A stretch of 64,000 nucleotides of DNA from Gammaproteobacteria bacterium (GTDB lineage: Bacteria; Pseudomonadota; Gammaproteobacteria; GCA-001735895). Shown here in pieces: positions 2,727 through 42,167 of the stretch (positions within the stretch are counted from its first letter, which is position 1; each line of letters opens with the position of its first letter). Under the pieces are notes generated by a model, which saw only the letters and a program-made list of their open reading frames with translations, was not told where the DNA came from and ran no database searches. The translations under genes and the position numbers were made by a program. Location: the NCBI GenBank assembly GCA_030066085.1, contig JASJCI010000013.1, forward strand, positions 1 to 64,000. Reading direction: 5' to 3'.

Positions 2727-3527
2727 ATGAGTAAAAGCCTGCAAAAATCAGGCCGCCCGCCGGCGAACACCGCAGCGGTTGCCGGGCCGCATGACGATAC
2801 TGTCGCCGCGTCGCCGCGCAATACACCCAATCCGGATGCCGGAACCAACCTGGCCAGGCATCGCGCGGCCATCGAAAAGCTGCGCATCGACCCGGGATGG
2901 CGCTACGATGGCAAACGGCTGCTGCGCGATAAACTCGGTTTCATGGCGGCACAATGCGAGCTGACGCTGGATATCGGCCAATCGAGCCGCGATCTCGCCG
3001 AGCTGTTCGCGCCCGACCGGATCGAGTCGGTCGATATCAACCGCGGCGAACCCACACCCGATATCGTCGACGATATCTGCGCGCCCAGTCGTCTCGAGCC
3101 CGCGCGCTACGACGGCATCGTCTGCCTGTCGGTGCTGGAACACGTTTACGACCCGTTCGCGGCAATCGATACGATGTATCGCCTGCTGATCCCGGGTGGT
3201 TACCTGCTGCTGCACCTGCCGTTTCACTATCGCTACCACGCCCCGCCGGACCTGGCCTTCGCCGACTGCTACCGCTTCAGCCGCGATGGCATAGCCTGGA
3301 TGTTAAGGGATTTCGAATCGGTTGAGCTGTATCCGATAAGGGGCGCCTGGTCGAGCATGATCAATCTTCGCAGGTTCTGGAAAAAAACCATCGAGGCAAG
3401 ATTCGGCCTGCGGGCAGCGCGCTGGCTGGATCGGCTGCTGGCTAAACCCGGCCGCCGCCCGACGGACGAGCTGCAGGTTTCGGGATACTACGTCTGGGCG
3501 CGTAAACCCCCGGCCGCGGGTCCCTAG
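2727..3527 (+). CDS. Class I SAM-dependent methyltransferase
   Basis: A protein of 266 aa with a Methyltransf_11-like core. The motif I region reads LTLDIGQSSRDLAELF (about residue 75-90). An acidic motif II (ESVDINRGE) follows, then IVCLSVLEHVYDP and LLIPGGYLLLHLPF, which match the post-motif and motif III of small-molecule or sugar methyltransferases. Motif I is less glycine-rich than usual. The first 45 residues are polar and low in complexity, so the true start may be internal. The substrate cannot be told from sequence. It stands alone, 109 bases after the DUF815 gene. Confidence 0.75.
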   Translation: MSKSLQKSGRPPANTAAVAGPHDDTVAASPRNTPNPDAGTNLARHRAAIEKLRIDPGWRYDGKRLLRDKLGFMAAQCELTLDIGQSSRDLAELFAPDRIESVDINRGEPTPDIVDDICAPSRLEPARYDGIVCLSVLEHVYDPFAAIDTMYRLLIPGGYLLLHLPFHYRYHAPPDLAFADCYRFSRDGIAWMLRDFESVELYPIRGAWSSMINLRRFWKKTIEARFGLRAARWLDRLLAKPGRRPTDELQVSGYYVWARKPPAAGP

Positions 3528-3705
3528 TTGTCCAGGGCGGTTAGAGGTTGAGGGTCTCGGCCTCCATGCGCGAACTCCGGGAAGTTCGCATGCCAACCCT
3601 CCGCGGCGACCGGATCGACGCCCGAACCCTTGAATTGTGCTGTCGCCCGTGCCAATCTTTATAATACCTGCCGTCCCTTGACGGCACGAGTTCGGAGCTG
3701 GTCAG
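3528..3705. repeat. Intergenic segment with inverted repeat
   Basis: A non-coding gap of 178 bases. It holds a 7-bp perfect inverted repeat, GCGAACT (3570-3576) and AGTTCGC (3583-3589), with loop CCGGGA. No T-run follows, so it is not a standard intrinsic terminator. It may be a protein-binding site or an RNA hairpin. Confidence 0.35.
3635..3665 (+). promoter_or_regulatory. Putative sigma-70 promoter for the cNMP-binding gene
   Basis: A perfect -10 TATAAT at 3660-3665 lies 40 bases before the GTG start. The best -35 is TTGTGC at 3635-3640, giving a 19-base spacer, slightly long. The -10 box is convincing and the -35 is weak. Confidence 0.5.
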
Positions 3706-41015: not shown

Positions 41016-41117
41016 CAGCAATTCTCGGGGACGACTTGGCTTCGACGTGGGTCGCGAAACCTGAGGTGCATGCCGAGCATGTAGGGAACTCGTAAAATCT
41101 CCTGCAAACTCATAGTT

Positions 41118-41150
41118 GCCAACGACGACAACTACGCACTCGCCGCTTAA
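41118..41150 (+). other. ssrA: tmRNA proteolysis tag reading frame
   Basis: The frame reads GCC AAC GAC GAC AAC TAC GCA CTC GCC GCT TAA, giving ANDDNYALAA. The resume codon GCC follows ATAGTT, in the same relative position as the AUAGUC upstream of the E. coli resume codon. ANDDNYALAA is the tag known from pseudomonads and related gammaproteobacteria. Confidence 0.93.
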
Positions 41151-41370
41151 TACCCGGTAGGGTGCCGTCCGACCGGAGCCGTGTCCATGCGTCCGGACCC
41201 GGGCGTCGCTTTCATGGAATCGTGATGGATCCTCGTCCGGGGGTGAAGCACTAAACAAGTACCGGAATCGCCGTTTGTCTTCCTGGTCCGGCGGGTAGCA
41301 GGCGGTTAAAACAAGGTCCGGAATAAGCATGTAGAGCCGATGGCGGAGGGCTTGCGGACGCGGGTTCGAT

Positions 41371-41633
41371 TAGTCAAATGGTCGCCACGGGGAGTGATCC
41401 CCGTCGGAAAAGAGGGCTCATACGGTGAACGCTAAGGGAGAGATCCTATGCCAACGCCGTCCGGTGAACGGGAAACCGGCAAGCCGGCTAGAGACTCATA
41501 GGCTCCTAACGGCCAATCCATCAAGGATTACCCCATGGAGTACTAGGGTGGGTATAGCCCACAATACGCCCTCCCCTGCCGGCTGGCAGGTGAAGGAATA
41601 GTCCAGCCCACATTGAAAAATGTGGAACAGCTG
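41371..41633 (+). ncRNA. Group I self-splicing intron in the tmRNA T-loop
   Basis: A 263-nt intron that obeys group I rules: the 5' exon ends in U (41370) and the intron ends in G (41633). P1 can form from exon CGAT and GTCG (41381-41384 region) with a U-G pair at the splice site. P2 is ACGGGGA/TCCCCGT with a GTGA loop (41387-41404). P3 GGGCT (41414-41418) can pair with AGCCC (41556-41560). P7 GACT (41493-41496) pairs with AGTC (41600-41603) inside an S-like element AAGGAATAGTCC. P8 is CCTGCC/GGCAGG (41575-41590). P9 is CCACATT/AATGTGG with a GAAA loop (41608-41625). Extra hairpins between P7 and the P3 3' strand suggest subgroup IA. It carries no open reading frame. Confidence 0.88.
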
Positions 41634-41656
41634 TCCCGCCGTCTCCACCACATAGA

Positions 41657-41687
41657 CCCGGTCGTCCAGGCGACCGGGTTTTTCTTT
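41657..41687 (+). terminator. Intrinsic terminator of tmRNA
   Basis: An 8-bp stem CCCGGTCG/CGACCGGG with a 6-base loop is followed by TTTTTCTTT. It starts 6 bases after the CCA end, and separates the tmRNA from the endonuclease gene downstream. Confidence 0.9.
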
Positions 41688-41768: not shown

Positions 41769-42167
41769 GTGCAAGCGGCTTATCTTGCGGGCCTGGTTGA
41801 TGGCGAAGGGACGGTAACCCTTTCACGGCGTCACAAATCCGAAAATCGACAATTGGTAGTCAGCATCAGTAATACTGAACTTCCACTGCTCCAGTACGTA
41901 CTGGAGGTCGTGGGCGTAGGCAAAATCACCAGCAAAAAAACCTATCGATCGCATCATGCCCCTGGTTATACCTACTCGATTTCGAATCGCCAGGGGCTAT
42001 CGCTGCTCAAACAGATACATCCCTGTCTGAGAACCTACGAGGCAAAACGCACGGCGTTGATAATCAGAGACTACATTCGGCTGACACCAGGAAACGGTCG
42101 CTACACAGCAGAAATCAGCCAGGCCCGAAAGGTCTTTGAACGCGAAGTAATGTCTATAAAATCGTGA
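41769..42167 (+). CDS. Single-motif LAGLIDADG homing endonuclease, free-standing
   Basis: A protein of 132 aa. The helix motif YLAGLVDGEGTVTL (residues 5-18) is a LAGLIDADG variant with the acidic catalytic residue kept. A single motif in a short protein means it should work as a homodimer, like I-CreI. The start is uncertain: GTG 41769 is the assumed start, but the frame is open back to 41730 and a GGGAAG ribosome site at 41746-41751 fits a start nearer 41757-41760 (ATT or CTG). The gene and its 5' side are markedly AT-richer than the surroundings, a sign of transfer. It lies outside the tmRNA intron, 118 bases after exon 2. It is inferred to promote homing of the intron into intronless tmRNA genes. 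Confidence 0.85.
   Translation: MQAAYLAGLVDGEGTVTLSRRHKSENRQLVVSISNTELPLLQYVLEVVGVGKITSKKTYRSHHAPGYTYSISNRQGLSLLKQIHPCLRTYEAKRTALIIRDYIRLTPGNGRYTAEISQARKVFEREVMSIKS

Follow-up and report, generated by a model that had tools for sequence, protein, structure and literature searches.

What moves a group I intron into a tmRNA gene when the intron carries no reading frame of its own? The question is raised by a 64,000-nt stretch of gammaproteobacterial DNA (GenBank assembly GCA_030066085.1, contig JASJCI010000013.1, positions 1 to 64,000; hereafter the window), in which a tmRNA gene on the forward strand (41027-41650) is interrupted in its T-loop after TTCGAT. The first report of an intron in tmRNA is that of Williams 2002, as cited in PMC11915505, and a 2025 survey by Nawrocki, Petrov and Williams lists 883 unique intron-bearing tmRNA genes (PMC11915505), so an initial sequence-only reading of this locus was correct in stating that T-loop group I introns of tmRNA had already been reported.

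The interrupted tmRNA gene

The Rfam tmRNA model RF00023, proposed as a check in that reading, matches positions 41035-41372 with 160.8 bits (E = 1.5e-63; cut-off 47). The true 5' end lies at 41027, where GGGGACG pairs with CGTCTCC of the 3' acceptor strand, which is followed by ACCA. The covariance-model match, the tRNA-like ends with CCA and the tag reading frame together place the gene among tmRNAs. The features of the locus are as follows.

41027-41370, + strand: tmRNA 5' exon, comprising the 5' acceptor strand, tag frame, pseudoknots and T-arm up to TTCGAT (RF00023; ARAGORN on the spliced sequence)
41118-41150, + strand: tag reading frame, ANDDNYALAA and stop (translation; ARAGORN)
41371-41633, + strand: group I intron, 263 nt, at T-loop position 7, with its terminal G at 41633 (52-intron alignment, consensus fold, pair counts, covariance model)
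41634-41650, + strand: tmRNA 3' exon, comprising TCCCGC of the T-arm, the acceptor strand and ACCA (pairing with GGGGACG at 41027; ARAGORN)
41654-41681, + strand: terminator-like hairpin and T run, between the tmRNA and the endonuclease gene (12-pair stem, T tail)
41769-42167, + strand: predicted LAGLIDADG homing endonuclease gene, 132 aa from GTG (Pfam, PDB profile match, AlphaFold, fold match)

The 3' exon reads TCCCGCCGTCTCCACCA. ARAGORN called no tmRNA on the window or on the isolated unspliced gene; with 41371-41633 deleted, it returned a complete 361-nt tmRNA with the tag ANDDNYALAA. The deletion rebuilds GCGGG-TTCGATT-CCCGC, which is the normal 7-base T-loop and 5-bp stem anticipated by the sequence-only reading; the boundaries it had given for the insert (263 bases ending in G) are exact, and its tag is confirmed by translation and by ARAGORN on the spliced sequence. 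A natural empty site is found in other genomes of the same genus, with an uninterrupted GGGTTC[G/A]ATTCCCGCCGTCTCCACCA, and one of these loci (L020) is 93% identical up to the junction. No second tmRNA exceeds the Rfam cut-off in the genome (96.55% complete), so the other intact copy that had been named beforehand as counter-evidence was not found.

Identity of the insert

An alignment of 52 introns at the same site, from Proteobacteria, Nitrospirota, Bacillota and one metagenome-assembled genome labelled Chloroflexota, gave a consensus fold containing P1, P2, P3, P4, P5, P6, P7.1, P8 and P9, to which P7 was added as a pseudoknot. In the insert, the stems occupy the following positions, all on the + strand.

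P1: 41367-41371/41380-41384 (consensus fold)
P2: 41387-41393/41398-41404 (consensus fold)
P3: 41412-41417/41568-41573 (consensus fold)
P4: 41423-41427/41455-41459 (consensus fold)
P5: 41431-41439/41444-41451 (consensus fold)
P6: 41461-41465/41483-41487 (consensus fold)
P7: 41491-41496/41600-41604 (added as pseudoknot)
P7.1: 41499-41506/41537-41545 (consensus fold)
P8: 41548-41553/41557-41562 (consensus fold)
P9: 41609-41614/41619-41624 (consensus fold)

With the P7 pseudoknot included, 97.8% of the cells of the 52-intron alignment pair, compared with only 35-43% in slid controls. Changes on both sides occur in 36 pairs, and the observed score was reached by none of 500 shuffles. The insert has the conserved core P3-P8 with its P3/P7 pseudoknot, and the U·G pair at the 5' splice site in P1 is present in 52/52 introns. 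A covariance model built from the 52 relatives (R1) scores the insert at 254 bits, the window having belonged to the training set.

The Intron_gpI model (RF00028), also suggested as a check by the sequence-only reading, left the insert undetected with E values up to 1 allowed. It does detect the related viral introns L173, L177 and L179, which indicates that the model is insensitive here; a match to it is a detection aid and not a defining feature of group I introns. Covariation of the core and the model built from relatives identify the insert as a group I intron despite this blank, and self-splicing is predicted. Thus the central claim of the sequence-only reading, that a group I intron interrupts the T-loop of a tmRNA gene, is borne out by RF00023, by ARAGORN after deletion and by covariation of P1-P9 including the P7 pseudoknot.

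Insertion between T-loop nucleotides 6 and 7 corresponds to position 7, which is one of four known tmRNA subsites and the main known intron site in tmRNA (PMC11915505). The insert shares with the catalogued intron-form tmRNA genes the T-loop group I intron, position 7, the U before the splice site and the terminal G (PMC11915505). Since its site is a known one, the intron alone is of a known type and on its own is ordinary for its class. The congeneric genome G020 has the same intron at the identical site and the same endonuclease gene in the same place. A DNA search of phage records revealed no source, its sole match being a 38-nt core shared with Enterococcus phages. Weak intron-model matches elsewhere in the bacterial class proved, where the flanks could be read, to be ordinary introns in tRNA anticodon loops, with no call from ARAGORN. 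Among these weak matches, group I introns interrupting tRNAs with anticodon CAT or TGT were observed at L332, L334, L335, L337, L339 and L341.

An endonuclease gene outside the intron

The unusual and new part of the locus, overlooked by the sequence-only reading, is the endonuclease gene, which lies outside the intron, ~120 nt past the tmRNA CCA and beyond the terminator-like hairpin. Its start codon is uncertain because the frame stays open 13 codons further upstream. The 132-aa protein matches Pfam LAGLIDADG_3 (7.8e-8) and, in a PDB profile search, I-MsoI (E = 1.9e-9); its AlphaFold model has a pLDDT of 93 and is matched by Foldseek to the I-CreI fold (E = 2e-7). The acidic residue (E/D) of the LAGLIDADG motif is kept in 58/58. 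With motif, domain and fold present, the protein is a predicted LAGLIDADG homing endonuclease. Its closest relative is that of G020, from the same genus; the two copies differ by a dN of 0.18 with a saturated dS that is not computable, which points to purifying selection on the gene.

A single LAGLIDADG motif and the fold of homodimeric enzymes are shared with I-CreI and I-MsoI, at an identity of ~13-23% in the structural matches. The genes for I-CreI and I-MsoI sit within organellar rRNA introns, whereas the gene described here is outside its intron.

We scanned ~85,000 species genomes with the endonuclease alignment and kept the best 80 loci by protein similarity only. At 75 of these 80 loci, a tmRNA gene is found at most a few hundred bases away; it has a T-loop intron at 65 of the 75. 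The gene is found behind the tmRNA on the same strand in Proteobacteria and Nitrospirota, typically 80-220 nt past CCA, and convergent to it just past CCA in Bacillota. Intronless tmRNAs beside the gene occur at three Halieaceae-type loci and in several candidate-phyla bacteria (convergent in L103, L113, L117 and L122; behind in L124; in front in L129). Four of the best 80 relatives are clear cases of a gene with no recognizable tmRNA next to it (L096, L119, L132 and L141); the L096 copy has a transposase-like sequence just upstream and groups with the Halieaceae copies.

On viral contigs, 13 of the 18 best relatives are at a tmRNA. At five of the 13, the endonuclease gene lies antisense within the T-loop group I intron (L168, L170, L171, L172 and L174, around 2860-3560); at the remainder, it is beside a standard tmRNA, or beside or in the spacer of a permuted one. 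L178:2780-3700 is an example of a permuted tmRNA, with the gene placed after the CCA of its acceptor piece and before its coding piece begins. Pistol ribozymes were also observed near split tmRNAs on three viral contigs (L171:5106-5174, L172:5103-5171 and L174:4342-4409). Our literature search turned up no account of an endonuclease gene located behind a tmRNA, and an earlier mention in Williams 2002 or 2003 is possible.

Association of intron and endonuclease gene

Scanning 369 genomes of the window's class with the intron model gave 20 strong matches, all in tmRNA T-loops, and one further intron end is visible at L158, which makes 21 intron-bearing genomes. An endonuclease gene or its relic stands at the expected place in 17 of these 21 and is not detectable in the other 4. 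The gene without the intron occurs in 2/369 genomes (G049 and G115), each with a broken copy and a canonical T-loop. Fisher's test on the intron-gene linkage in the 369 genomes gives p = 1e-23, which is only a guide because the genomes are related. In a Clostridia sample chosen by intron, and with the entry locus set aside, an intact or broken endonuclease gene adjoins 6 of the 19 intron-split tmRNAs, and about two thirds are without one. In about half of the class cases, the intron is present with a broken or absent gene. A series from intact through broken to lost gene is expected from the known life cycle of homing genes.

Endonuclease distances are more strongly correlated with tmRNA-body distances (partial r = 0.58) than with intron distances (0.29, p = 0.0005), so a tight co-descent of intron and endonuclease, which we had considered, is not what the distances show. 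The endonuclease tree, built on few columns and with many open forks, nests intronless arrangements at more than one point among the intron-bearing ones, and pairs the window's copy with that of the congener (support 98/92). Given the closer agreement of the distances with the tmRNA body than with the intron, intron and endonuclease partners can probably be exchanged.

Displaced 3' ends and changed T-loops

To recognize a displaced tmRNA 3' end, we scored the sequence behind the endonuclease gene out of 26 positions; the maximum in 859 control regions was 19/26. Perfect second tmRNA 3' ends (26/26) stand right behind the gene in L074 and L134, and diverged copies are found at the same distance in L085 (21/26) and L126 (20/26). 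The displaced ends lie 0-60 nt behind the gene. L090 scores only 17/26, yet its sequence, GGGTTCAACTCCCGC, is the form usual in its family, and the congener L045 has a weak score of 17/26 (p = 0.03). Behind the window's own endonuclease gene no displaced 3' end is recognizable, the best score of 14/26 being at chance level.

The Halieaceae provide a second trace. The ancestral TTCAACT is found in 19 unchanged-loop tmRNA loci with enough flank, and none of the 19 has the endonuclease gene; a T-loop of TTCGAGA or TTCGAAA is found in four loci, three of which have it. All three gene-bearing loci thus have a changed T-loop, in a comparison that is small and confounded by relatedness. Intact enzyme genes are found beside changed T-loops, and broken ones beside canonical T-loops. 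Taken with the displaced 3' ends, this pattern suggests that the element appears to bring its own tmRNA 3' end and to push that of the host downstream. L301:1490-1700 holds a Halieaceae tmRNA with the changed T-loop TTCGAGA, no endonuclease gene and then a further partial tmRNA 3' end; it is possibly a locus that lost the gene.

Proposed mechanism and its alternatives

We propose that the mobility of the intron is supplied by the endonuclease from outside it. Acting as a homodimer, the enzyme would cut the DNA of an uninterrupted T-arm, GACGCGGGTTCGATTCCCGCCGC, which is an imperfect palindrome at 12/23 positions by virtue of the T-arm stem. Repair templated by the donor would then copy the intron along with the 3' exon, the terminator and the endonuclease gene, and the recipient's own 3' end would sometimes stay behind the endonuclease gene. 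The new allele would be immune, since the intron, or the changed T-loop in other lineages, should break the target site, and splicing would keep the insertion harmless to the tmRNA. From the sequence comparisons above, we consider this whole explanation, with the T-arm cut by an outside endonuclease and intron, 3' exon and gene copied jointly, to be likely. Counting against it are the window's own lack of a recognizable displaced 3' end, the four intron-bearing class genomes and some two thirds of the Clostridia sample in which the gene is missing, the closer tie of the endonuclease distances to the tmRNA body, and L301 with its changed loop but no gene. We also lean towards its wider form: a widespread tmRNA-directed endonuclease family, in several bacterial phyla and on viral contigs, whose self-standing unit of intron, 3' exon and endonuclease would replace the tmRNA end at each transfer, with the intron or a changed T-loop serving as the immunity device.

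A doubtful but possible alternative is that intron and endonuclease are independent parasites which converged on the T-arm, the enzyme homing without an intron and helping the intron only by accident. The gene does occur without an intron in Halieaceae, candidate-phyla bacteria and viral contigs, including those with permuted tmRNAs, its distances track the tmRNA body more than the intron, and its tree switches between arrangements several times. Against this stand the strong linkage in the class, where most introns of this type adjoin the gene or a relic, and the intron-endonuclease correlation that remains after correction for the tmRNA body (r = 0.29). The endonuclease gene would be the cargo of an integrase-placed genomic island, with the direct repeats as att sites, in another reading that we find improbable. 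In its favour, att sites are well known from tmRNA 3' ends (PMC11915505), the endonuclease gene is flanked by displaced 3' ends, and G049 has an 8.4-kb segment between direct repeats that include a tmRNA 3' end and an endonuclease pseudogene (L046:2426-11500), which is itself probably an island at a tmRNA att site. Such islands likewise insert at the 3' end, restore it with incoming DNA and leave a displaced copy downstream; the unit described here differs in being <1 kb, in lacking an integrase and in having an endonuclease gene and usually a T-loop intron. The 0-60 nt behind the gene leave no room for an integrase, the endonuclease gene is the constant element across phyla, and an island would leave the T-loop intron and the changed T-loops unexplained.

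Some LAGLIDADG proteins are maturases, and the profile of the present protein also matches the solved mRNA maturase 2ab5 (E = 5.8e-6), so the gene might encode a splicing aid placed beside the intron instead of inside it. We rate this as very unlikely, since many introns have survived where the gene is broken or missing (about half of the intron-bearing class cases); moreover, intact genes stand beside intronless tmRNAs, and the best structural matches are endonucleases. That this interrupted gene is dead or silent, with an insert that does not splice, is scarcely credible: splicing is a prediction and the assembly is only ~97% complete, but no other tmRNA is found in the genome, the exons, tag and every catalytic helix are intact, and the congener G020 retains the same intron at the same site.

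A free-standing endonuclease gene near an ORF-less intron is the layout of the window and of the 65 intron-bearing loci, and with homing from outside the intron as the preferred explanation, the arrangement is probably a case of collaborative homing at tmRNA in bacterial chromosomes. Collaborative or trans homing was described in phages by Zeng, Bonocora and Shub 2009 (reviewed in PMC3984707), and its known cases are phage protein genes. The tmRNA locus differs in that the target is an RNA gene in bacterial chromosomes, the enzyme is of the LAGLIDADG type (its cleavage being predicted), the 3' exon would be copied as well and 3' ends are displaced.

Significance

The 2025 survey found endonuclease genes inside 36 of 883 tmRNA introns (4.1%), compared with 54% for archaeal rRNA introns, and left the difference open; it counted only genes inside introns (PMC11915505). 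Unlike in those intron-form tmRNA genes, the endonuclease gene here is outside, behind the tmRNA, as is the gene or relic in 17/21 intron-bearing class genomes. Such an outside location may account for the scarcity of endonuclease genes inside tmRNA introns. The carriers include the cultured species Methylophaga sulfidovorans, Thiocapsa marina, Parahaliea mediterranea and Halalkalibacter wakoensis, which make the proposed homing testable. If the predicted cleavage is true, collaborative homing would no longer be confined to phage protein genes but would include a bacterial chromosomal RNA gene.
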